Assembly: GCF_004114915.1 (NCBI RefSeq)
Contig: NZ_CP022219.1
Location: forward strand, 3,130,501-3,194,500
DNA from: Bradyrhizobium guangxiense
Lineage (GTDB): Bacteria; Pseudomonadota; Alphaproteobacteria; Rhizobiales; Xanthobacteraceae
Reading direction: 5' to 3'
Length of the DNA stretch: 64,000 bases
The translations under genes were made by a program, and so were the position numbers. Within the stretch, counting starts at the first letter, position 1. Each line of letters opens with the position of its first letter. Positions 836 through 17,848 of the stretch are shown piece after piece. The notes below the pieces were generated by a model. The model ran no database searches. It saw nothing but the letters and a program-made list of their open reading frames with translations, and had not been told where the DNA came from.

Positions 836-1255
836 TGTGGGTTTGTGCGCAGCAAGTGCCTCGCAGGGGCTCGCGAATCCGCCATGGTCGGCCTGTGGAT
901 ATGCTGTGGAAGACCAGTGAATTTGCTGCGGATGCCGGACGTGGATGCTTCGGTTCGGCGTCAGATCTCAATCGGCGATGTCGTATCTCTGTCAAACAGG
1001 TTCACCGAATGATGCGCCGATCGCGCAAATCGCTGCGTCGGCGGAGATGATGTGTCTATCCCGAATTCGGAATCCCTACCCGCGCCGCTGTGGCCTGCGA
1101 ACAGTTTTTGGGCAGCCGTTTGCCCAAATGTCGGGCGCGCTCCATCCAATTTTTTGTACGCCCGCGGACAAGCTTTTCGCGCCGCGCTCCCGCACGCTTC
1201 CTCTCCGATCACTGGACCATGGCAGGCGCCATGACATTTCGGAGGAACTGGCGAG
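788..1255. other. intergenic region upstream of the amide/ABC cluster
   Basis: This is about 420-470 bp with no convincing gene. ORFs here are low-complexity Arg/Ser-rich shadows. The first 50 bp hold the out-of-frame tail of the broken small gene. The only structured element I see is the dyad at 1107-1128. A good Shine-Dalgarno (GGAGG) precedes the ATG at 1256. Confidence 0.6.
1107..1128. promoter_or_regulatory. 22-bp dyad, candidate operator
   Basis: The sequence is a perfect inverted repeat, TTTGGGCA, six-base spacer, TGCCCAAA. It sits about 130 bp upstream of the ABC binding-protein gene. Its size and symmetry fit a dimeric repressor or activator site. It is not followed by a T-run, so a terminator is less likely. 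Which protein binds it is unknown. Confidence 0.4.
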
Positions 1256-2176
1256 ATGGAGAAATCGGTTTGGCCCCAGGCGCGGCGGGGAACGGCGCGC
1301 GCATCATTGCCACAGCGCAAGCTCATGCTCGGTGCCGCCATCGCTTTCGGCCTCGTCGTCGCCGCGCCGCTGAGCGCGCAGGCCGCTGCGCCCGCCGCCT
1401 GCGCCACGCTCCAGGAGAAGTACCCGGACTGGAAGGGCAAGACGCTCGTCAACGCCATCAACCCGCACACGCCGGGCTATGAGACGATCGATCCCAAGGA
1501 CCCCAGCAAGTACATCGGATTCGATATCGATCTCGGTGAAGCCATCGGCGAATGCCTCGGCTTCAAGCTGACCTACAAGCCCGTAGTGTTTGCGGCACTC
1601 CTGACCACGCTCGCGGCCGGCCAGGCCGACATCGTGATCTCCGACATCTACGCCACCAAGGAGCGTGCCAAGGCGGCCGACTTCATCACCTATTCGAAAG
1701 TGTTCGACGGCGTGCTGGTCGCCAAGGGCAATCCGAAGGGCATCAACGGCATCAACATGTCGATGTGCGGCGCGGCTGCCGCCGAGAACACCGGCTATGT
1801 CGAGGTGCCCCTGATTCAGGCCTTGATCCCGGAGTGCAAGAAGGCCGGCAAGGCGGAGCCGACCATCCAGCTCTACGACAACAACGCCAACTGCATCCAG
1901 GCGATCCTCGCCGGCCGTGCCGACACCTATGTCAACGACGTCAACACCGTCGACAGCGCGGTGAAGGCCTATCCGGACAAGCTGGAGAAGGCGATCGCGG
2001 TGACGATCCCATATTCGGTCGGCATCGCCGTTCCCAAGGACAAGCCGAAATTCCGCGACGCCGTGCTCGCCGCCCTCATCGAGGTGCAGAAGGCCGGCAC
2101 GCATATGGAGCTTCTGAAGAAGCATGGGCTCGATGTGAACAACTTCAAGGAGCCGGACATTCTGACGGCTGACTGA
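1256..2176 (+). CDS. ABC transporter substrate-binding protein, polar amino-acid type (SBP family 3)
   Basis: A 306-aa periplasmic binding protein. It has a basic N-terminus and a hydrophobic core at about residues 22-42 (LMLGAAIAFGLVVAAPLSAQA) with cleavage near AQA-A. The mature part has typical family 3 features: YIGFDIDLGEAIGECLGFKL, then AGQADIVISDIYATKERAKAADF, the segment carrying the ligand-contacting Arg/Asp, and VGIAVPKDKP in the second lobe. The mature protein has several Cys pairs. The start is chosen for the GGAGG box 8-9 bases upstream. Its stop overlaps the next start (TGATG), so it is translationally linked to the permease-ATPase. The neighbouring amide hydrolases suggest an amide- or amino-acid-like ligand; that is inference. 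Confidence 0.9.
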   Translation: MEKSVWPQARRGTARASLPQRKLMLGAAIAFGLVVAAPLSAQAAAPAACATLQEKYPDWKGKTLVNAINPHTPGYETIDPKDPSKYIGFDIDLGEAIGECLGFKLTYKPVVFAALLTTLAAGQADIVISDIYATKERAKAADFITYSKVFDGVLVAKGNPKGINGINMSMCGAAAAENTGYVEVPLIQALIPECKKAGKAEPTIQLYDNNANCIQAILAGRADTYVNDVNTVDSAVKAYPDKLEKAIAVTIPYSVGIAVPKDKPKFRDAVLAALIEVQKAGTHMELLKKHGLDVNNFKEPDILTAD

Positions 2177-3798
2177 TGTCGCTGTTCCTCCACTATCTGA
2201 GCATGCCGTATCTGCTCGAGGGCATCGAGCTCACCCTGGAGGTGACTGCCCTCGGGCTCGGCGGTGGATTGATCCTCGGACTGATCCTCGCCGGCATGCA
2301 GCTCTCGCGCTTTTGGCTCCTCTCGGGGATCGCCAGGGCCTACACCGTGATCTTCCGCGGCACGCCGCTGATCCTGCAAATGGTGTTCGCCTACGACGCG
2401 CTGCCGCATATCGGCATCAAGCTGCCGGCGGTGCTGGCCGCCGGTCTCGCGCTCGCCTGCAACGAGGCGCCGTTCATCGCGGAGATGCTGCGGGCCGGCG
2501 TACTCGGCGTCGACCGCGGGCAGCTGACTGCGGGGCAGGCGCTCGGCATGACGCCGTCAGTGCTGATGCGCAGGGTCATCGCGCCGCAGGCCATCCGCAC
2601 CATGATCCCGGCCTTCGGCAACGAGGCGGTGAGCGCGCTGAAAAATTCCTCGCTCGCCTCCGTCGTCGCGGTGCAGGAGCTGACCTTGCGCTCGACCCAG
2701 CTGGCGTCCTCGACCTTCGACTTCTTCTCGATCTTCTTCGCTTCGGGTCTGCTCTATCTGGTGCTGACCGCGACCATCAGCGTCATCCAGCTCTTCATCG
2801 AATGGTTGCTCGATCTCGACCGTGCCAAGGGCCGCGAGCGCAAGCTCGTCGATTATCTGCCGTGGCGCCGCGTCGATCTCGTCGCCAGGCTCGAACTCGC
2901 CGATGCGACCGTCGCCGATCCCGGGCGCGCACCAGCAGAGTTGACCGACACGCCGCCGCTGGCCTTGACCCGTGAGGAGCGCGCCCGCCGCGCCGCGACC
3001 ATCGCGCGCAACAACATCGCGGTCGAGGTCAAGGATCTCACCAAGAGCTACGCCCCGCAGAAAGTGCTCCACGGCCTCGACCTCACGGTGCGGGTCGGCG
3101 AGGTTGTCGCACTGCTCGGGCCGAGCGGCTCAGGCAAGAGCACGCTGCTCCGCTGCATCAACCATCTCGAAAACTGGGACGCCGGCACCGTGCGCGTCGG
3201 CGGCCGCCGCCTTGGCTTTGGCGAAGACGGCAAGCCACTGTCGCCGCGCGCCATCGCCAACGAGCGCGCCAGTGTCGGCGTCGGCATGGTGTTCCAGCAG
3301 TTCAATTTGTTCGCTCATCTGTCGGCGAAGGAGAACATCGCGGGCCCATTGCGCTGGGTCCATGGCATGACCCGGATCGATGCCGATCGCCGCGCCACCG
3401 AGCTGCTCGACCGCGTTGGCCTCTCGCATCGCGCCGATGCGCTGCCGCGGCATCTCTCCGGCGGCCAGCAGCAGCGCGTTGCCATCGCCCGCGCGCTCGC
3501 ACCCAATCCAAGTGTGTTGCTGCTGGACGAGCCGACCTCCGCGCTCGATCCCGAATTGGTCAACGAGGTGCTGGAGGTGATCCGCCGCCTCGCCATCGAC
3601 GACGGCCTCACCATGATCATCTCGACACACCAGATCCGCTTCGCCGACGAGGTCGCCGACCGCGTCGCTTTCCTGAGCGGCGGTGCGATCATCGAGGAGG
3701 GGCCCGCGCACGAGGTGCTCTCCAATCCCCGCAATCCGCTGACGGCGCGTTTCCTCAGTGTGATGGAAGCCGACAAGACGCTGGAGACGGTGCGATGA
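2176..3798 (+). CDS. fused ABC permease and ATP-binding protein, polar amino-acid type
   Basis: A 540-aa single polypeptide. Residues about 1-225 are a HisMQ-type inner-membrane permease (several hydrophobic segments; EAA loop around EMLRAGVLGVDRGQLTAGQALG). A charged linker of about 60 residues follows, then an ATPase at about 280-535. The ATPase has Walker A GPSGSGKST, Q-loop VFQQFNLF, signature LSGGQQQRVAIARAL, Walker B LLLDEPTSALD and the H-loop STHQ. In most species these are separate genes. With one polypeptide carrying both functions, a homodimer would make the complete transporter. It overlaps the binding-protein stop by one base and is followed by the acetamidase gene after 42 bp, which suggests one operon. 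Confidence 0.92.
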   Translation: MSLFLHYLSMPYLLEGIELTLEVTALGLGGGLILGLILAGMQLSRFWLLSGIARAYTVIFRGTPLILQMVFAYDALPHIGIKLPAVLAAGLALACNEAPFIAEMLRAGVLGVDRGQLTAGQALGMTPSVLMRRVIAPQAIRTMIPAFGNEAVSALKNSSLASVVAVQELTLRSTQLASSTFDFFSIFFASGLLYLVLTATISVIQLFIEWLLDLDRAKGRERKLVDYLPWRRVDLVARLELADATVADPGRAPAELTDTPPLALTREERARRAATIARNNIAVEVKDLTKSYAPQKVLHGLDLTVRVGEVVALLGPSGSGKSTLLRCINHLENWDAGTVRVGGRRLGFGEDGKPLSPRAIANERASVGVGMVFQQFNLFAHLSAKENIAGPLRWVHGMTRIDADRRATELLDRVGLSHRADALPRHLSGGQQQRVAIARALAPNPSVLLLDEPTSALDPELVNEVLEVIRRLAIDDGLTMIISTHQIRFADEVADRVAFLSGGAIIEEGPAHEVLSNPRNPLTARFLSVMEADKTLETVR

Positions 3799-3840: not shown

Positions 3841-5082
3841 ATGAAGCATGTCACGCTCCCGGTTTCGCCGAAAACGGTCCATTGGGGCTATTTCTCCAAG
3901 ACAGTCACGCCGGCCCTGACGCTGCGCTCCGGGGATCGCGCCACCATCGAGACGCTGACCCATCATGCCAACGACGACTATGAGCGCATGATCCAGGGCG
4001 ATCCAGGCGCCGAGAGCGTGTTCCAGTGGACGCGCGAGCACAAGGCGGTCGCGCGCCGCGGCTCAGGCCCGGTCGAGGGCCCCTTCATTCGCGGCGCAGG
4101 CGAGGGGATCGGCGTGCATTTGCTCACCGGCCCTGTCGCGATCGAGGGCGCCGAGCCCGGCGACATTCTGGAGGTGCGCATCCTCGATATCAGGCCGCGG
4201 CCGAGCTGCAGTGCTTGCCATGCCGGCCGCTGCTTCGGCTCCAATGTCGCCGCCAACTGGGGCTTTCACTATCACGACCTGATCGAGGAGCCGAAGCCAC
4301 GCGAGGTCATCACCATCTTCGAGCTCGACACCTCCGGCGAGCCCTTTGCAAAGGCCGTCTACAATTACGTCTGGACGCCGCAGACCGATCCTGACGGCAT
4401 CGTGCATCCGACCATCGACTATCCCGGCGTCCGCGTCGATCACGCCACCATCAGGAAACGCGAGAACATCCTCTCCAGCGTGAAAGTGCCCGCACGATTG
4501 CACTTCGGCACCATGGGCCTTGCGCCGTCGGAAGCCGATTTCGTCAGCTCGATTCCGCCGAGCTATACCGGCGGCAATATCGATGACTGGCGCATCGGCA
4601 AGGGCGCGCGAATGTTCTATCCGGTTGCCGTCCCCGGCGCCTATTTTTCTGTCGGCGATCCCCATGCCGCGCAAGGCGACAGCGAGCTCGGTGGCACCGC
4701 GATAGAGACCTCGCTGACCGGCGATTTCGAATTCATCCTGCACAAGAAGGCCGACCTTGCCGGCACCAGCCTCGAAGGCCTCGACCATCCCATGCTCGAG
4801 ACCGACCACGCCTGGTCGTTCTACGGCTTCACCTATCCGAACTATCTCGCCGCGCTCGGCTCCGACGCGCAAACGGAGATCGCCAATCACAGTAGTCTCG
4901 ACCGTGCGATGCGCGATGCGTTCAGAAAACTTCGCCGTTTCCTGATGACCGTGCATCGCCTCAGCGAGGACGAGGCGATCTCGCTGATGTCGGTCGGCGC
5001 CGATTTCGGCGTCACCCAGGTGGTCGATGCCAATTGGGGTGTCCACGGCACGATCCGAAAGAACATGTTTCGATGCGACTGA
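3841..5082 (+). CDS. acetamidase/formamidase family protein
   Basis: A 413-aa cytoplasmic hydrolase of the FmdA/AmdA family (PF03069 type), predicted to cleave a short amide to ammonia and an acid. Family landmarks are VHWGYF near the start, SGDRATIETLTHHAND, GPVAIEGAEPGDILEVRILDI, the GDPHAAQGDSELGGTAIE core, and the C-terminal SVGADFGVTQVVDANWGVH. It is unusual in having Cys123-x-x-Cys126-His127 and Cys131 in a loop where the fused paralogue downstream has no Cys. There is no signal peptide, so this is probably not a haem site. It lies in the operon of the ABC importer and directly upstream of the AraC-acetamidase fusion. The true substrate cannot be read from sequence. Confidence 0.9.
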   Translation: MKHVTLPVSPKTVHWGYFSKTVTPALTLRSGDRATIETLTHHANDDYERMIQGDPGAESVFQWTREHKAVARRGSGPVEGPFIRGAGEGIGVHLLTGPVAIEGAEPGDILEVRILDIRPRPSCSACHAGRCFGSNVAANWGFHYHDLIEEPKPREVITIFELDTSGEPFAKAVYNYVWTPQTDPDGIVHPTIDYPGVRVDHATIRKRENILSSVKVPARLHFGTMGLAPSEADFVSSIPPSYTGGNIDDWRIGKGARMFYPVAVPGAYFSVGDPHAAQGDSELGGTAIETSLTGDFEFILHKKADLAGTSLEGLDHPMLETDHAWSFYGFTYPNYLAALGSDAQTEIANHSSLDRAMRDAFRKLRRFLMTVHRLSEDEAISLMSVGADFGVTQVVDANWGVHGTIRKNMFRCD

Positions 5083-5175: not shown

Positions 5176-7605
5176 TTGACCAACGACCCCCATTTGCGGC
5201 CCGTCGCTGCGACGGATGACCGCGTACGTCTGGCACAGAGGTTGCTTCGATCGACCGCAATCTGGGTCGATCCGATGAGCTTCCGGCCGTTCACGAGCGA
5301 GTCCTACGCGCAAGACGACCGCCCCGAAGCCTGGCGGGACGTGCTGGCGGCGGTCGGCCTGCAGCCGGCAGGCGGTCATTCCTTCTTTGACGGGCACGCG
5401 ACCGCCTCGCATCGCCATGCCGCAGGTGTTGCGCTGACGCGCATGGCCGCGGGCGCGCAGAGCGTCGGTCCGCTCTCACGAGCGAACGAAGACCTTCCAA
5501 TCGCGCTGATACCGGTCGAGGATGGCATGGTGCTCAGAAGCGCCGGCGGTCACCGCATCGTTCCCGTCGGCCATCTCGTGCTGCTGCCCCGCAGCGGTGA
5601 CTGGAGCATCGTGTTCCAGCGCGACATGCGCGCCATCGTGCTGTCGGTCACGTCGGAGGCGCTGCACGGACGCCTCTCGGGCAAGCCACGGCTCGGCGAG
5701 CCCTGTGTCGTTCCGTCCGGCGGCTTTGCCGATGTGTTCTCGCGCCTGCTGGACGCGACCGCGCGCACGCTGGATAGTTTGAGCGATTCCGAATGGAATT
5801 CGCTCGCGCAGTCGCTGGTCGATCTGCTGTTGACGCTCGCGCATCAGCTGGCGGCCTCGAGCTCCGATGCCGGATCGAGTGCGACGCAGGCTGCGCTGCT
5901 GCACCGGATCTGCCAGACCATCGAGCGTCGCCTCGACGATCCCGATCTGGTGCCCGCGCGCGTCGCGCAAGCCGAGGGCATTTCCGAACGTTATTTGCAA
6001 AAGCTGTTCGAGACGGTCGGCGACAACTTCACCCACTACGTTCGCGAGCGTCGTCTCCAGCGCGCCTGGGCGGATCTTTCCAACCCGACCGAGGCGCATC
6101 GCTCGATCTCGGAGATCGCCTACGCCTATGGCTTTGGCGACTCCGCGCATTTCAGCCGCGCCTTCCGCCATCGCTTCGGCCTGCCGCCGCGCGAGTTTCG
6201 CCAGCAGGAGGCGGAGCGAGCGACGGCACAGCACGGCGTCGCCGGCCAGCGCGGCTGGCCGCAGCAGGCGCTGACGCAATTGCGCGCGCATCAGAGCCTG
6301 GAGGGCCGCGGCAACGTCGCCTGTGCCAGTGCCGAGGAGCGCGCGAGCACGGAGCGCAGACATCACCATCTTGCGGTCGAGGCCAGCCGCGTTCATTGGG
6401 GCTATTTCAGCCGCTCGCTGCCGCCGCAGATCGAGATCGCATCGGGCGACACCATCACCATCGAGACACTGACGCAGCACGCCTCTGACGCCCCTGACAT
6501 GATGATCGCCGGCGATGCCGCCGCCGAAAGCGTGTTCGGCTGGACGCGGAACAAGAAGAACGTCGACCGTCGCGGCGCAGGACCGATGGATGCCAGCGTG
6601 TTCGGCCGCGGTGCCGGCGAGGGGTTTGGCGTGCACATCTGCACCGGGCCCGTCGCGGTGAAGGACGCCCAGCCTGGCGATGTGCTGGAGGTGCGTATCC
6701 TCGACATCGTGCCGCGGGCGAGCCGGAGCCCGAACCACGCCGGGCGCGTGTTCGGCTCCTCGGTGGCGGCCTGGTGGGGCTATCACTACAACGAGTTTCT
6801 CGGCGGTCCCAAGCCACGCGAGACCGTGACCATTTACGAGATCTTTGACGATGTGGACGCGCCGCATGCCCGCGCGCTCTATTCTTATCGCTGGGAGCCG
6901 CAGACCGATCCCTTCGGCGTCGTGCATACCACCTACGACTATCCCGGCGTTCCCGTTGTACCCGCCACGATCAAGCGCCGGCACGCCGTGCTCGACGGCA
7001 TCAAGATTCCTCTGCGGCCGCATTTCGGCGTGATCGCACTGGCGCCGCGCGAGGTCGATTTCATCGATTCCGTGCCGCCGTCCTATTTCGGCGGCAATCT
7101 CGACAATTGGCGGCTGGGGAAGGGGGCGACCGTCTATCTTCCGGTCTCCGTGCCCGGCGCGCTGCTGTCGGTCGGCGATCCCCACGCAGTGCAGGGCGAT
7201 GGCGAGCTCAGCGGCACCGCGATCGAATGCTCGATGACCGGCACCTTCGAGGTGACCCTGCACAAGAAGGCCGATCTCGCCGGCCGTCCCTTCGCGGATC
7301 TCTCTTATCCCCTGATCGAGACCGAGAGCGACTGGGTGCTGACCGGCTTCAGCCACCCCAACTACCTCGCCGAATTCGGCGCGCAGGGGCAGAGCGAAGT
7401 CTACGCAAAATCCTCGCTCGATCTCGCCATGAAGGATGCGTTCCGCAAGATGCGGCGCTTCCTGATGAACGTCAAAGGCCTCAGCGAGGACGAGGCGATC
7501 GCGCTGATGTCGGCGGCGGTCGATTTTGGCGTGACGCAAGTCGTCGACGGCAATTGGGGCGTGCACGCCATCCTCAGCAAGCGCCTGTTTCAGGACGCAC
7601 CTTAA
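5176..7605 (+). CDS. AraC-type regulator fused to an acetamidase/formamidase
   Basis: An 809-aa ORF from a TTG start; an ATG at 5275 (MSFRPFTSESYAQDD) gives 776 aa and is at least as plausible. Counting from the TTG, residues about 40-210 are an AraC sensor-like domain. Residues about 235-340 are an intact double helix-turn-helix (VARVAQAEGISERYLQKLF region; then ISEIAYAYGFGDSAHFSRAFRHRFG). Residues about 341-398 are an Ala/Arg/Gln-rich linker. Residues about 399-805 are a full acetamidase/formamidase (RVHWGYFSR, GPVAVKDAQPGDVLEVRI, GDPHAVQGDGELSGTAIE, VDFGVTQVVDGNWGVH). No stop or frame change separates the parts. The enzyme half closely resembles the upstream 413-aa enzyme, so duplication then fusion is likely. 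It may act as a trigger enzyme that senses its own substrate; that is inference. Confidence 0.85.
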   Translation: MTNDPHLRPVAATDDRVRLAQRLLRSTAIWVDPMSFRPFTSESYAQDDRPEAWRDVLAAVGLQPAGGHSFFDGHATASHRHAAGVALTRMAAGAQSVGPLSRANEDLPIALIPVEDGMVLRSAGGHRIVPVGHLVLLPRSGDWSIVFQRDMRAIVLSVTSEALHGRLSGKPRLGEPCVVPSGGFADVFSRLLDATARTLDSLSDSEWNSLAQSLVDLLLTLAHQLAASSSDAGSSATQAALLHRICQTIERRLDDPDLVPARVAQAEGISERYLQKLFETVGDNFTHYVRERRLQRAWADLSNPTEAHRSISEIAYAYGFGDSAHFSRAFRHRFGLPPREFRQQEAERATAQHGVAGQRGWPQQALTQLRAHQSLEGRGNVACASAEERASTERRHHHLAVEASRVHWGYFSRSLPPQIEIASGDTITIETLTQHASDAPDMMIAGDAAAESVFGWTRNKKNVDRRGAGPMDASVFGRGAGEGFGVHICTGPVAVKDAQPGDVLEVRILDIVPRASRSPNHAGRVFGSSVAAWWGYHYNEFLGGPKPRETVTIYEIFDDVDAPHARALYSYRWEPQTDPFGVVHTTYDYPGVPVVPATIKRRHAVLDGIKIPLRPHFGVIALAPREVDFIDSVPPSYFGGNLDNWRLGKGATVYLPVSVPGALLSVGDPHAVQGDGELSGTAIECSMTGTFEVTLHKKADLAGRPFADLSYPLIETESDWVLTGFSHPNYLAEFGAQGQSEVYAKSSLDLAMKDAFRKMRRFLMNVKGLSEDEAIALMSAAVDFGVTQVVDGNWGVHAILSKRLFQDAP

Positions 7606-7618
7606 CAAGGACATCCAA

Positions 7619-8002
7619 GTGAAATTCCACATGATCAGCGGCGGACCAAAGCCGGTCGCGCCCTTCAGCCACGTGGTGGAGACCGATGGCTTTGTGTTCG
7701 TCACCGGCCAGATGCCGGACACGCCGCAGACGCCGGGCGTGTTGCCCGATGGCATCGTCGCGCAGACGAAGGCCGTGATGGAGAATCTGAAGGTGGTTCT
7801 CGCCGGCCTCGATCTCGGCCTCGAGCATGTGGTGATGGCGCGCGTCTATTTGACGCGCTTCAAGGAAGACTATGCGGCCATGAACGAGACCTACCGCACG
7901 TTCTTCGCACCCGACCGCCTGCCGGCCCGTACCTGCGTCGGCGTCACCGGGCTTGCCTATGATGCGCTGATCGAGATCGATCTGGTGTGCCGGCGGCCGT
8001 AG
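7619..8002 (+). CDS. RidA/YjgF family protein
   Basis: A 127-aa cytoplasmic protein of the RidA family, which hydrolyses reactive enamine/imine intermediates, or acts in amide and pyrimidine catabolism in some members. Landmarks are the N-terminal SHVVETDGFVFVTGQM, the central VMENLKVVLAGLDLGLEHVVMARVYL, and the C-terminal motif LPARTCVGVTGLAYDALIEID with the conserved Arg that contacts the carboxylate of the substrate. The start is GTG, 13 bp after the fusion-gene stop, with a weak Shine-Dalgarno (aaggacatc). Position suggests it is the last gene of the amide cluster, perhaps clearing a reactive product. Confidence 0.88.
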   Translation: MKFHMISGGPKPVAPFSHVVETDGFVFVTGQMPDTPQTPGVLPDGIVAQTKAVMENLKVVLAGLDLGLEHVVMARVYLTRFKEDYAAMNETYRTFFAPDRLPARTCVGVTGLAYDALIEIDLVCRRP

Positions 8003-11472: not shown

Positions 11473-12237
11473 ATGACGCAGCCTGCAAAGGTCACAGAAC
11501 CCTCGATGGAGGAGATTCTGGCCTCGATCCGGCGCATCATTGCCGACGACGAGGCCAAGCCGCCGCCGGCAGAGACCGCCAAGCCCGAGAAAGCTGCAGC
11601 CCCTGCCGCGCCGCCAAAGCCGCAGGCGATGACTGACATTCCGCCGTCCAAGGTCGCACCGGCCAAACCGGCCGCCGAGAAGCCCGCTCCACCCCCGGCC
11701 GCAAAGCCGGCGCCGGCCCCGCCACCTGCAGCGGAGGCATCCAACAGCCAAGACGACATCGACGCGCTGCTGGCGGGGCTCGATGCGGCCACGCCTGCGG
11801 CCGAGGTCCGCGCACCCGAGCCGGAGCCAGAACCAGAACCCGACGTGCTCGAATTGACCGACGAGATGGCGGTGGATCCGATGCCGCCCCCGCCGCCGCC
11901 GAGCTTCCGCAAGGTCGAGCCGCGCGACGACCTCGAATTTTCCGAATCGCCGCCGCGTCCGACGCCGCCGCCACCGTCCTACGCGCCGGTGGACTTCGAT
12001 GCGCCGCCGCTGCCGCCGCAACAGCCGATCCTCGCGCAGTCGACGGTCTCGGCGGTCGAATCCGCCTTCAACTCGCTGGCCCACACGGTGCTCAGCAGCA
12101 ATGCGCGGACGCTGGAGGATCTGGTCAAGGAAATGCTGCGTCCGATGTTGAAGTCCTGGCTCGACGACAACCTGCCGGGCCTCGTTGAACGCATCGTGAA
12201 GGCCGAAATCGAGCGGGTCTCGCGCGGCGGCCGCTGA
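11473..12237 (+). CDS. DUF2497/PopZ-like polar-organising protein
   Basis: A 254-aa low-complexity protein. The N-terminal conserved helix (EPSMEEILASIRRIIADDE) and C-terminal helical domain (LEDLVKEMLRPMLKSWLDDN followed by LPGLVERIVKAEIERVSRGG) are the signature of the alphaproteobacterial PopZ/DUF2497 family. Family members make polar scaffolds that anchor the chromosome origin through ParB. The middle (about 30-185) is Pro/Ala/Glu-rich and probably disordered, with an acidic PEPEPEPEP patch near residue 120 and poly-Pro tracts. A GTG at 11461 in the same frame is an alternative start. It lies directly upstream of valS. Confidence 0.85.
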   Translation: MTQPAKVTEPSMEEILASIRRIIADDEAKPPPAETAKPEKAAAPAAPPKPQAMTDIPPSKVAPAKPAAEKPAPPPAAKPAPAPPPAAEASNSQDDIDALLAGLDAATPAAEVRAPEPEPEPEPDVLELTDEMAVDPMPPPPPPSFRKVEPRDDLEFSESPPRPTPPPPSYAPVDFDAPPLPPQQPILAQSTVSAVESAFNSLAHTVLSSNARTLEDLVKEMLRPMLKSWLDDNLPGLVERIVKAEIERVSRGGR

Positions 12238-12365
12238 GGCCGGCCGTACGGCCCCGATAAAGCCCTGCTCCCAGGGCATATTCGGCCCGCGGACTGGGCT
12301 TGAAAGCCTTTTGCCGCTGAGCTTTCCGTTGACTTGGCCCGCCCACGCGGCTTTCTAGCAGCCCC

Positions 12366-15242
<2,877 letters not shown>

Positions 15243-15249
15243 TCTGGCT

Positions 15250-15329
15250 GTCATTCCGTGGCGATGCGTAGCATCGAACCCGGAATCTCGAGATTCCGGG
15301 TTCGGCTCTGCGAGCCGCCCCGGAATGAC
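15250..15329. repeat. interspersed palindromic repeat, bidirectional terminator candidate
   Basis: An 80-bp inverted-repeat element bounded by GTCATTCC and GGAATGAC. Inside it is a perfect 28-bp palindrome at 15276-15303 (13-bp arms GAACCCGGAATCT / AGATTCCGGGTTC around CG). This is the form of interspersed repeat I know from Bradyrhizobium intergenic DNA. It separates convergent valS and the glycosylase gene, so it may serve as transcript end for both. Confidence 0.8.
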
Positions 15330-15331
15330 GA

Positions 15332-15934
15332 TCACTTCGGAAACGGCTTGCTCAAGAATTTCGAGCCCCTGACGCCGTAGCGCCAGGGCAGCTCGACGGC
15401 CTTGGTGATGCCGATCCGGATTCCGGTCGCGACCTCGACGTCGCCGGTCCGCGCATGCAGTGCGAACGGCGGCCGGTCCAAGGGCAGGGTGTTGTGCGCG
15501 ATGCTGATCCCGAGCGCTTCGGTCAGCTTGCCGGGGCCCGAGCACAGCGCATGCAGATCCTGCAGATGGCGACGGCGACGCATCGCAGCTAAGCCGTGCG
15601 TCGGCTGCAGCGCGCGGATCAGCACGGCGCTGGCCGAGCCTTCCTCCTCGCAGACGAAATTGACGCACCAGTGGATGCCATAGGAGCGATACACGTAGGC
15701 GTAGCCGGGCGGACCAAACATCACCTGGTTCCGCGGCGTCGGGCCATTGTAGGAATGCGCCGCCGGCTCGGTATGATGATAGGCCTCGACCTCGACGATG
15801 ATCCCGCCGACGCCGTCGACCAACATGGTGGCCCCGATCAGGTCGTGGGCGACCTCGCGGACGTTGCGCGCGAAAAAGCCACGCTTCAGGGTCTTGCCAA
15901 GCCGTGGTGTGGAAGGTTTCGAGACTGGAGCCAT
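15332..15934 (-). CDS. 3-methyladenine DNA glycosylase (AAG/MPG family)
   Basis: A 200-aa base-excision repair enzyme removing alkylated purines. Landmarks are [39 protein letters not shown] (containing the catalytic Glu within VEVEAY), [20 protein letters not shown], and [12 protein letters not shown]. The length is typical. Start [13 protein letters not shown] at 15934. It is transcribed toward valS; lipA is divergent 130 bp away. Confidence 0.95.
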
Positions 15935-16064
15935 TCGAGGTGAGAATCGCTTGAGAACAGAGCAGGATATTGCCCATATCTGCCATGTTCCCTGAAGTGG
16001 CGCGAGCCGGGTTGCGATGCCAGGCCAGACCGACTAGGTAGGACCTGAACAGACCGGACAGACC

Positions 16065-17021
16065 ATGGTCGTTATTGTCGATACCATTTCGAACCCGCTG
16101 CGCCCGCGCCACCCCGAAAAGGTGAAGCGTCCTGACTCCGCTTCGCCGCCGAAGCCGGACTGGATCCGCGTGCGCGCGCCCAACACCCGCGGCTATGCCG
16201 ACACCCGCAACATCGTGCGCTCCAACGGGCTGCACACGGTGTGCGAGGAGGCGGGCTGTCCGAATATCGGGGAGTGCTGGGACAAAAAGCACGCCACCTT
16301 CATGATCATGGGTGACACCTGCACCCGCGCCTGCGCGTTCTGCAACGTCAAGACCGGCCTGCCCAACGCGCTGGACACGGCCGAGCCGCAGAACGTCGCC
16401 GAGGCGACCGCCAAGCTGGGCCTCGCCCACGTCGTCATCACCTCGGTCGATCGCGACGACCTCGCCGATGGCGGCGCCGAGCATTTCGCCCAGACCATCC
16501 GCGCCATCCGGGCCGCATGTCCCTCGACCACGATCGAAATCCTGACACCCGACTTCCTGCGCAAGGAGGGAGCGCTCGAGGTGGTCGTCGCCGCCAAGCC
16601 CGATGTCTTCAATCACAATCTGGAGACAGTGCCGTCGCGCTATCTCACGGTGCGGCCCGGCGCGCGCTATTTCCATTCGATCCGGCTGTTGCAGCGGGTC
16701 AAGGAACTCGATCCCACCATTTTCACCAAATCCGGCATCATGGTCGGCCTCGGCGAGGAACGCCATGAGGTGCAGCAGGTGATGGACGATTTGCGCTCCG
16801 CCGACGTCGATTTCCTGACCATCGGCCAATATCTGCAGCCAACCCGCAAGCACCACGCCGTGATGCGCTACGTGCCGCCGGACGAATTTTCGTCGTACGA
16901 GAAGATCGCCTACACCAAGGGCTTCCTGATGGTGTCGGCGAGCCCGCTGACCCGCTCGTCGCATCATGCCGGCGAAGACTTTGCGAGACTGAAGGCCGCG
17001 CGGGCAGCTAGCGCCCGCTGA
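16065..17021 (+). CDS. lipA: lipoyl synthase
   Basis: A 318-aa radical-SAM enzyme inserting sulfur into octanoylated lipoyl domains. The auxiliary cluster motif [13 protein letters not shown] (about 66-78) and the radical-SAM motif [13 protein letters not shown] (about 85-97) are both intact. [17 protein letters not shown] and a C-terminal RSSHHAG segment (serine ligand of the auxiliary cluster) are also present. The next gene starts six bases after its stop region, consistent with an operon. Confidence 0.97.
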
Positions 17022-17027
17022 ACCGCC

Positions 17028-17522
17028 ATGCCCAAATTTTCGAGCAAGCGCCGTGTCAATCACAGCGCATCCGAGATGTTCGACCTGGTCGCCGACGTCG
17101 AGCGGTACCCGGAATTCGTGCCGCTCTGCAGCGCGCTGAAGGTGCGGCAGCGGATGGCGAAGCCCGACGGCACCGAGGTGCTGGTGGCCGACATGACGGT
17201 GTCGTTCAAGCTGATCAAGGAATCCTTCACCAGCCGGGTGACGCTCGACCGCACCAACTTGAAGATTCTCGTCGAGTATCTGCAAGGTCCTTTCAGCAAT
17301 CTCGAAAACCGCTGGACGTTCGAGCCCAAGGGCCAGGACCAGGGCCAAGAGCAGGGCCATGGCGTCTGTGACGTCGGATTCTTCCTGTCCTACGAGTTTA
17401 GGAGCCGCATGCTGGCGATGCTGATGGGCTCGATGTTCGATGCCGCCTTCGCGCGGTTCTCGACCGCGTTCGAAAAGCGGGCGGATGCGATCTACGGCCG
17501 GCCGAAGCTGGCGCCGACATAG
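17028..17522 (+). CDS. Coq10/RatA-type START-domain protein
   Basis: A 164-aa cytoplasmic SRPBCC/START-like protein. It begins with MPKFSSKRRVNHSASEMFDL and VERYPEFVPLC, the typical helix-grip start of the Coq10/RatA family, and ends with the long amphipathic C-terminal helix. Family roles are ubiquinone binding (Coq10) or ribosome association (RatA); sequence alone does not choose. Its position after lipA is frequent in alphaproteobacteria, as far as I recall. Confidence 0.85.
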   Translation: MPKFSSKRRVNHSASEMFDLVADVERYPEFVPLCSALKVRQRMAKPDGTEVLVADMTVSFKLIKESFTSRVTLDRTNLKILVEYLQGPFSNLENRWTFEPKGQDQGQEQGHGVCDVGFFLSYEFRSRMLAMLMGSMFDAAFARFSTAFEKRADAIYGRPKLAPT

Positions 17523-17537
17523 GCACACTCTTTCCGC

Positions 17538-17591
17538 CGTCATTGCGAGCGTAGCGAAGCAATCCAGAGTCTCGCCGCGGCGGGACTCTGG
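17538..17591. repeat. partial interspersed palindromic repeat
   Basis: Starts CCGTCATTGCGAGCGTAGCG, a motif I recall as frequent in Bradyrhizobium and Rhodopseudomonas intergenic DNA. It folds with arms CCAGAGTC (17564-17571) and GACTCTGG (17584-17591). The usual right half (return to AATGACGG) is missing, so this is a truncated copy. Confidence 0.7.
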
Positions 17592-17626
17592 AAAGCCGAA
17601 ATTCTGTAAAGGCGAATGTTTTTGTT

Positions 17627-17646
17627 GCGGGCGGTTGACCGCCCGC
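17627..17646 (+). terminator. hairpin, candidate terminator
   Basis: Eight-bp perfect GC stem (GCGGGCGG / CCGCCCGC) with TTGA loop, followed by a T-rich tract (TTGTGTGTTTT). It is placed about 105 bp after the Coq10/RatA-type gene, so it could end the lipA operon transcript. Confidence 0.6.
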
Positions 17647-17693
17647 TTGTGTGTTTTGCCTGTCGGGCAACGCAACGGCTTGTAGGCTTCTAG

Positions 17694-17719
17694 CCCGGAT
17701 GAGCGCAGCGACATCCGGG
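17694..17719. repeat. short REP-like hairpin
   Basis: Arms CCCGGATG and CATCCGGG enclose a ten-base loop (AGCGCAGCGA). The unit 'tagcccggatgagcg' is, to my knowledge, a recurring rhizobial intergenic element. Confidence 0.6.
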
Positions 17720-17848
17720 ACTTACGCAGACGGTGGTACCGAGTCTCGCTTCGCTCCCCCGGCGACGCGACCGTGTTCCGCCTCGGCCGTCGCGGGATCA
17801 TTTGGCATCGCGGTGCGTTCTCAACGCATTGTCCGGGTTGGAGCCGCC

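Follow-up and report, generated by a model that had tools for sequence, protein, structure and literature searches.

In the soil bacterium Bradyrhizobium guangxiense a single open reading frame (ORF) joins an AraC-type DNA-binding regulator to a complete acetamidase/formamidase of the FmdA family, and this fusion is real and old and is not a sequencing error, since 53 genomes of the genus carry it as a stop-free frame and relatives are found in Alpha-, Beta- and Gammaproteobacteria. It was studied in a stretch of 64,000 nucleotides (assembly GCF_004114915.1, contig NZ_CP022219.1, positions 3,130,501 to 3,194,500 of the forward strand), called the window below. There the fused gene follows genes for a solute-binding protein, a permease-ATPase and a stand-alone acetamidase/formamidase, FmdA1, and this order, referred to as type 1, is kept in 28/28 type 1 loci read, with the fusion itself broken in one of them (L120). 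Regulator-enzyme fusions as such are already known, and the present one is a widespread and little-studied chain of this kind. Judging by its co-occurrence with an operator-like motif, the fused protein is very probably a DNA-binding regulator of the neighbouring operon.

Architecture, spread and origin of the fusion

An earlier note, made from the sequence alone, had placed an AraC double helix-turn-helix (HTH) and an acetamidase/formamidase in one frame, and Pfam bears this out for the open frame 5176-7605, in which HTH_18 (PF12833) reaches 79.3 bits against a cut-off of 33.6 and FmdA_AmdA (PF03069) 99.8 bits against 27, with the best stretch of the latter at residues 599-758 (domain residues are numbered in the form of 776 amino acids, aa). 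Both domains were matched in 58/58 members of alignment A1, 57 of which retain AraC_binding_2 as well. By domain content alone the protein corresponds to a trigger enzyme, that is, catalytic and gene-regulatory domains in one polypeptide. The nearest NCBIfam model for the AraC half is NF007243 (FeaR; E 9.3e-34, 117 bits, below the 199-bit cut-off). The formamidase equivalog NF045496 gives the fused protein 60 bits against an NCBIfam cut-off of 500, so that it is not named an FmdA formamidase by that model, and the stand-alone neighbour FmdA1 likewise stays below with 64 bits.

The earlier note had proposed mapping further chains that combine an AraC HTH with PF03069, and had named a stop or frameshift, or separate genes in near relatives, as what would speak against the fusion. 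Precomputed Pfam assignments give both domains to 120/120 and 119/120 homologues in two listings (239/240 among the matches listed). Fused matches occur in 53/117 genomes of the genus sample, with no stop in any of them and one (G016) cut by a contig end, in 18/119 genomes of the family sample, and, at E 1e-60, in 8/249 and 8/398 genomes of the order and phylum samples, these four samples being overlapping. The fusion forms one open frame in all three proteobacterial classes, and the named genomes include Delftia, Variovorax, Paraburkholderia, Caballeronia, Pseudomonas, Methylophaga, Nitrincola and Afipia. From 513 relatives found by homology 80 fused loci were kept; both halves are matched in 79 of them (L228 matches residues 339-782), and the enzyme match lies at least 366 residues into an open frame in 80/80. 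A stop inside the enzyme half was found in G226, a genome from another genus of the family, which contributes the broken locus L120. Listed relatives of the AraC half only, with more than 40% identity and readable tails, look like pieces of fused genes, frame-shifted copies of them or fused genes cut by the end of a contig. Database entries already name the architecture ('acetamidase/formamidase/AraC-like DNA-binding protein'), and no paper on an AraC-FmdA fusion was recognised in the open full text of PubMed Central, which leaves subscription papers and preprints mostly outside.

The two halves are connected by a linker of 58 residues, counted from where the HTH ends, at approximately residue 314, up to VHWGYFS (373) in the enzyme and in agreement with the length of about 58 estimated before; among 278 fused proteins, with P0216 and P0226 (<700 aa) dropped, it varies from 53 to 113 residues. 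An RGxP motif is present in 276/278 of them (151 RGWP, 94 RGRP), located 11-19 residues into the stretch that starts at reference residue 310. RGRP is the core of the AT-hook, and the RGxP motif is a possible extra DNA contact. A free-standing AraC relative (L062) carries RGRP near its end as well, suggesting that the motif may be an ancient tail of the regulator. An internal translation start yielding free enzyme was also considered and rejected: the linker in the window holds one in-frame TTG, with no further support.

The presence of the stand-alone paralogue FmdA1 (3841-5082) directly upstream, correctly noticed before, had been taken to indicate duplication followed by fusion, and this history is not borne out for the enzyme half. 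In the enzyme tree a branch with support 100/99 separates 38 fused representatives from 13 stand-alones (unrooted; three long-branch stand-alones, S_L134_9635p, S_L131_8658m and S_L153_5641p, were excluded, and the truncated S_L150 was omitted from both enzyme trees). In the first enzyme tree, which contained the long-branch rows, the fused group needs 2 changes and is set apart by a branch in only 37% of 200 bootstrap replicates. A clade of type 1 fused enzymes with the neighbouring FmdA1, a grouping chosen after the first tree, was rejected by the approximately unbiased (AU) test (p-AU 0.011). Since the fused enzymes group apart and the test rejects the joint clade, local duplication was discarded: the fused enzyme did not arise recently from the paralogue upstream of it. 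A single fusion event would fit best. The tree of the AraC half is less clear than that of the enzyme: fused rows need 3 changes, free-standing AraC proteins nest beside some fused ones, and 3 of the 10 'free' rows (P0310, P0312, P0316), perhaps also P0343, look like fragments of fused genes. This tree is compatible with free forms being either ancestral or split off. At locus L153 (5641-7699) unfused FmdA and AraC genes stand approximately 8 bp apart in the opposite order, possibly as a split or pre-fusion form.

Candidate control elements

Two elements accompany the gene. The first, TGGCACAGAGGTTGCTT, resembles a sigma54-type promoter, the -24/-12 consensus of which is TGGCAC-N5-TTGC, and ends 27 bases before ATG 5275, between the two starts that the open frame offers, namely TTG 5176 (809 aa) and ATG 5275 (776 aa), both leading to the stop at 7605. 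The earlier note left the choice between them open. Because the element lies downstream of TTG 5176, a transcript started from it would lack this codon, which fits the 776-aa form and not the longer one; ATG 5275 is most likely the start, and the 809-aa reading is probably wrong. The pattern TGGCACNNNNNTTGCTT has its sole exact match in the window at this place, and allowing up to 2 mismatches yields 7 matches vs 3.0 expected, so weight is given only to the exact one. The shorter TGGCA-N6-TTGC also occurs just once in the window, at the same position, and stands upstream of the fused gene in 24/28 type 1 loci (the scripted gene start fell inside the gene in four type 1 loci, making the printed distance too large); the four loci lacking it, L116-L119, belong to the most distant ones. 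Among further fused loci it was found 60-190 bp upstream in 19/78, compared with 10 matches elsewhere in approximately 779 kb counted on both strands; this set, which includes close relatives, comprises the 80 fetched loci minus two with too little upstream sequence.

The second element is an array of phased CAA triplets before the operon. Three CAA in exact 22-bp phase occur in 15/28 type 1 loci vs 9/2540 background pieces, and with a looser first triplet in 19/28 vs 18/2540; four such repeats at the same phase were seen upstream of the solute-binding protein gene in L115 and L109. The core of the array, CAA-N6-GTRCG-N7-ACAA, has exactly one match in each of the 28/28 type 1 loci and is also present within the divergent intergenic region of L130 (Delftia; the same place as L162). 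In the organism's own genome of 8.2 Mb it matches once, at the operator-like site, and the reversed control pattern also matches once.

For a held-out test, a model of 29 columns was trained on 22 distinct type 1 sites and applied with a cut-off of 12.5, the best score of 40 dinucleotide-shuffled loci. It passes in 23/25 beta- and gammaproteobacterial fused loci, the misses (L168, L182) being contigs with only 7 and 165 bases ahead of the gene, in 31/55 other fused loci, in 8/9 type 2a/3 loci, and in 0/17 loci from genomes where a stand-alone FmdA and no fusion was found. Where beta/gamma loci are arranged in tandem, the site is mostly located 1.66-2.3 kb ahead of the fusion, near the beginning of the FmdA gene that precedes it; where the two genes diverge, it falls in the space separating them. 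L183 and L184 carry the strict site 2.7-3.1 kb downstream, the upstream side offering just a relaxed match, and L173 showed no FmdA-like ORF upstream of the fusion. The unfused FmdA-AraC pair of L153 scores 12.3. L152, a stand-alone FmdA locus of the draft genome G224 with the fusion on another contig, passes with 18.3; its site (approximately 5815) lies between the stand-alone gene and a divergent 413-aa gene, oriented toward the latter, and might represent a trans target of the fused protein.

The first scan of the 80 fetched loci used stop-to-stop frame starts, left 28 loci without a frame by regular expression and found the strict motif in 1/52 and the relaxed one in 2/52 loci, with 21 strict matches across 789 other pieces. 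With gene starts corrected, 7/80 loci have the strict motif and 10/80 the relaxed one no more than 500 bp upstream of the fused gene, most of the remaining beta/gamma sites sitting before the upstream gene.

A number of observations count against linking the motif to the fused protein. The strict core was not found in 11 of 12 loci read of types 2-4 (other gene arrangements, described below), L130 being the sole match, and the model fails in 24/55 of the other fused loci, passes in 0/2 type 4 loci and gives just 9.5, a failing score, to L151, a stand-alone FmdA locus from a genome with the fusion. The test takes the best match anywhere in the locus, and several of the 55 other loci have their best site kilobases from the fusion, so those passes count less; sites in close relatives are not independent, L162-L164 being near-copies. 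The strict core was likewise not found in L133-L153. The motif is considered here as a new candidate operator that appears to travel with the fused gene across neighbourhoods and classes.

Selection, enzyme pocket and modes of action

The ratio of non-synonymous to synonymous substitution rates (dN/dS), calculated by protein region for the window gene against 11 type 1 relatives, is 0-0.16 in the HTH, 0.06-0.17 in the enzyme, 0.07-0.53 in the AraC N-terminal domain and 0.15-0.88 in the linker. The HTH and enzyme parts are under strong purifying selection. The N-terminal domain exceeds the enzyme in 10/11 comparisons, with nearly equal values in the exception, L101. Both potential pockets foreseen by the earlier note are kept, AraC_binding_2 in 57/58 members of A1 and the core residues of the enzyme (H402, D405, H583, D610, D635, H637, Q640, D642, E644) in 277/277 fused enzymes, a set from which L120 with its broken frame was left out. 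The residues of the motifs HFG, GGNxD and GDxHxxQGDxE are equally kept in 277/277. A degenerate active site in the alphaproteobacterial type 2/3 clade was tried as an idea, the regular expressions having missed 9/277 (GDxHAxQGDxE) and 6/277 (GGN[ILM]D), and was dropped because the alignment shows Phe or Leu for Ala and Val at [ILM] with the core residues present.

The mechanism proposed on these grounds would begin with nitrogen limitation, which, to judge from the promoter sequence, would turn the fused gene on through sigma54. The AraC half would then bind direct repeats of ACAAG-type half-sites, 22 bp apart, before the transporter/FmdA1 operon and, once bound, would activate it, as the co-occurrence of protein and motif suggests. 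The likely signal would be the amide that the protein's own FmdA domain binds as substrate, and hydrolysis of this amide would switch the regulator back, with transcription following amide supply in the manner of a trigger enzyme. Most likely the fused protein is a local regulator that acts under nitrogen control on the uptake and hydrolysis of amides. For this chain as a whole, including a built-in amidohydrolase and sensing by the enzyme domain, the chances appear evenly divided. So do they for the FmdA domain being the sensor, while continued turnover of substrate by this domain is somewhat on the probable side. Substrate sensing by the enzyme domain is plausible, and this placement of the sensor is favoured, if unproven, because the AraC N-terminal domain drifts faster and the enzyme core is strictly kept. 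More tentatively, and with rather less confidence than for the local mechanism, the fused proteins may form a class of one-component trigger enzymes that is widespread and so far undescribed. In this class the intact active site of an amidohydrolase would be joined functionally to the DNA-binding domain of an AraC protein, the genes for taking up and hydrolysing amides would be transcribed according to occupancy or turnover of the enzyme and not according to binding to the usual AraC sensor, and an operator of their own would be conserved across proteobacterial classes.

Two features of the protein itself tell against turnover-coupled sensing. Position 401 is Gln in 273/277 fused enzymes vs His in 56/58 stand-alones (four stand-alones omitted from the first motif count were included in the recount giving 58), and this exchange could weaken or abolish turnover; besides, the AraC N-terminal domain, still recognisable, could be the true sensor. 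If the former holds, the FmdA domain would bind substrate or product without converting it and leave catalysis to a stand-alone FmdA. The Gln next to the invariant His402 agrees with such a division of labour, as do the replacement at position 622 (Leu in 276/277 fused enzymes vs Tyr in 55/58 stand-alones) and the second FmdA-like gene that is usually adjacent, in 28/28 type 1 loci and, as an ORF within 4-kb flanks, in 67/80 fused loci fetched by homology. Pure sensors, however, often lose part of their catalytic residues, whereas the catalytic set, with catalytic and metal roles assigned from sequence, is kept here in 277/277 and the enzyme region shows dN/dS of 0.06-0.17; a domain that only senses seems improbable to us.

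If the N-terminal domain is the sensor, the enzyme could be merely tethered to the regulator to secure joint expression or dosage, and the two halves would exchange no signal. Retention of AraC_binding_2 in 57/58 and a fast-diverging linker of 53-113 residues would suit this arrangement. But the supposed sensor has higher dN/dS than the enzyme in 10/11 comparisons, and frequent breakage would be expected of a dispensable connection, yet the 53 genus matches are free of stops and the listed close free-standing matches with readable tails look like fragments or frame-shifted copies of the fusion. Such a tether is held to be improbable to the same degree.

It is far less probable that the motif belongs to another regulator of the operon, with the fused protein acting elsewhere or mainly as an enzyme: the attribution to AraC-type direct repeats relies on spacing alone and the motif was not seen in part of the fused loci, but it follows the fused gene across neighbourhoods and classes, and none of the 17 stand-alone-only loci passes the model. 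An artefact of sequencing or of mis-joined neighbours, for which the window offers nothing and the relatives one stop (G226), has a negligible chance in view of the 239/240 listed two-domain homologues, the 53 stop-free genus matches and strong purifying selection.

Neighbourhood and relation to known systems

The genes and elements of the cluster are collected in Table 1. The stand-alone neighbour was also present in each of 49 type 1 genomes of the genus search. Three further arrangements were encountered. In type 2 the fusion and another FmdA gene stand in divergent orientation (7/7 loci, L121-L124 and L128-L130); the divergent FmdA of L121 and L130 has the N-terminus RRSFLR, resembling a signal of the twin-arginine translocation (Tat) pathway, which a stricter regular expression did not match. 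Type 3 is represented by L125, where Pfam identifies divergent genes of a tripartite ATP-independent periplasmic (TRAP) transporter and a gamma-glutamyltranspeptidase, and by L126 and L127 with neighbour genes of roughly the same sizes; these neighbours suggest a different substrate, perhaps gamma-glutamyl, for the L125 branch. Type 4 comprises L131, where a shorter FmdA precedes the fusion and an IlvD-type gene follows it, and L132, the contig of which begins at the fusion and continues with a 574-aa ORF. One genome (G216) holds two copies of the fusion, of types 1 and 3. Very long antisense open frames were also observed in the window (5476-7755, minus strand, 759 aa; 11979-17801, minus strand, 1940 aa), probably as a by-product of high GC content.

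Table 1. Features of the amide gene cluster in the window (positions counted from its first nucleotide).
Feature	Position	Strand	Basis or occurrence
Operator-like array before the operon: three CAA, exact 22-bp phase, starts 1125, 1147, 1169	1122..1172	+	
Core of the array, CAATTTTTTGTACGCCCGCGGACAA	1147-1171	+	Alignment; 28/28 type 1 loci
Solute-binding protein, family 3, of amino-acid-type ATP-binding cassette (ABC) transporter	1256..2176	+	PF00497; 28/28 type 1 loci, same place
ABC transporter permease and ATPase in one 540-aa chain	2176..3798	+	PF00528, PF00005; 28/28 type 1 loci
Stand-alone acetamidase/formamidase FmdA1, 413 aa	3841..5082	+	PF03069; 28/28 type 1 loci
Sigma54-type promoter TGGCACAGAGGTTGCTT for the fused gene (putative)	5231..5247	+	Pattern match, no mismatch; conserved in type 1 loci
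Fused AraC::FmdA protein, 776 aa	5275..7605	+	Single open frame, Pfam domains, homologues
AraC_binding_2 (PF14525), N-terminal domain, residues 22-187	5338..5835	+	E 8.1e-7, 29.4 bits vs cut-off 27
AraC-type double HTH, HTH_18, residues 231-311	5965..6207	+	E 2.8e-22; residues 206-314 with dN/dS 0-0.16, 11 relatives
Linker, residues 315-372; RGWP at 6250-6261	6217..6390	+	RGxP conserved
Acetamidase/formamidase domain (PF03069), residues 373-773	6391..7593	+	Pfam; core residues invariant
Enzyme motifs HFG; GGNLD; GDPHAVQGDGE	7021-7029; 7090-7104; 7174-7206	+	
Rid-family (L-PSP) protein, final gene of the cluster	7619..8002	+	PF01042; 23/28 type 1 loci

Comparison with described regulators places the AraC half near the FeaR-like branch of the AraC/XylS family, with which it shares AraC_binding_2 followed by a double HTH, catabolic gene neighbours and candidate direct repeats approximately two helical turns apart. 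FeaR, which controls the use of aromatic amines in E. coli, lacks an enzyme domain, whereas here a complete amidohydrolase follows the HTH. The assumption made earlier that known AraC proteins sense their ligands through a cupin domain appears too narrow, given that in Ada and in AraC proteins of the GlxA/DJ-1 type the AraC HTH is joined to an enzyme or enzyme-like domain. These share with the present protein the union of both functions in one chain and differ in that their enzyme domain is unrelated; here the enzyme stands after the HTH and a stand-alone paralogue is usually next door. PutA is a trigger enzyme with a ribbon-helix-helix domain that responds to redox state. In the likeness proposed here, a single polypeptide carries out a catabolic reaction and also controls the genes for it, the difference being an AraC HTH with an amidohydrolase and putative coupling in place of the ribbon-helix-helix and redox control. 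On the enzyme side, residues 360-773 align with the FmdA_AmdA family (PF03069) and with 3b9t, a Tat-pathway protein and the closest solved structure by sequence, and the core motif residues are kept, while Gln 401 and Leu 622 distinguish the fused branch. FmdA-AmdA enzymes are described as proteins of approximately 45 kDa, and the word 'AraC' is absent from that text (PMC10781810); a gene of the FmdA family beside an ABC transporter cluster appears in another report (PMC3098086).

If the proposed coupling is true, an amidohydrolase active site would be linked directly to the control of a promoter whose candidate operator and target genes are already named. Because enzyme, sensor and DNA site share one protein and one operon, it would become directly testable whether a catabolic gene switch reads ligand or flux. 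The coupling would also help to assign stand-alone genes of the FmdA family to regulated pathways and might serve as a possible base for amide biosensors.

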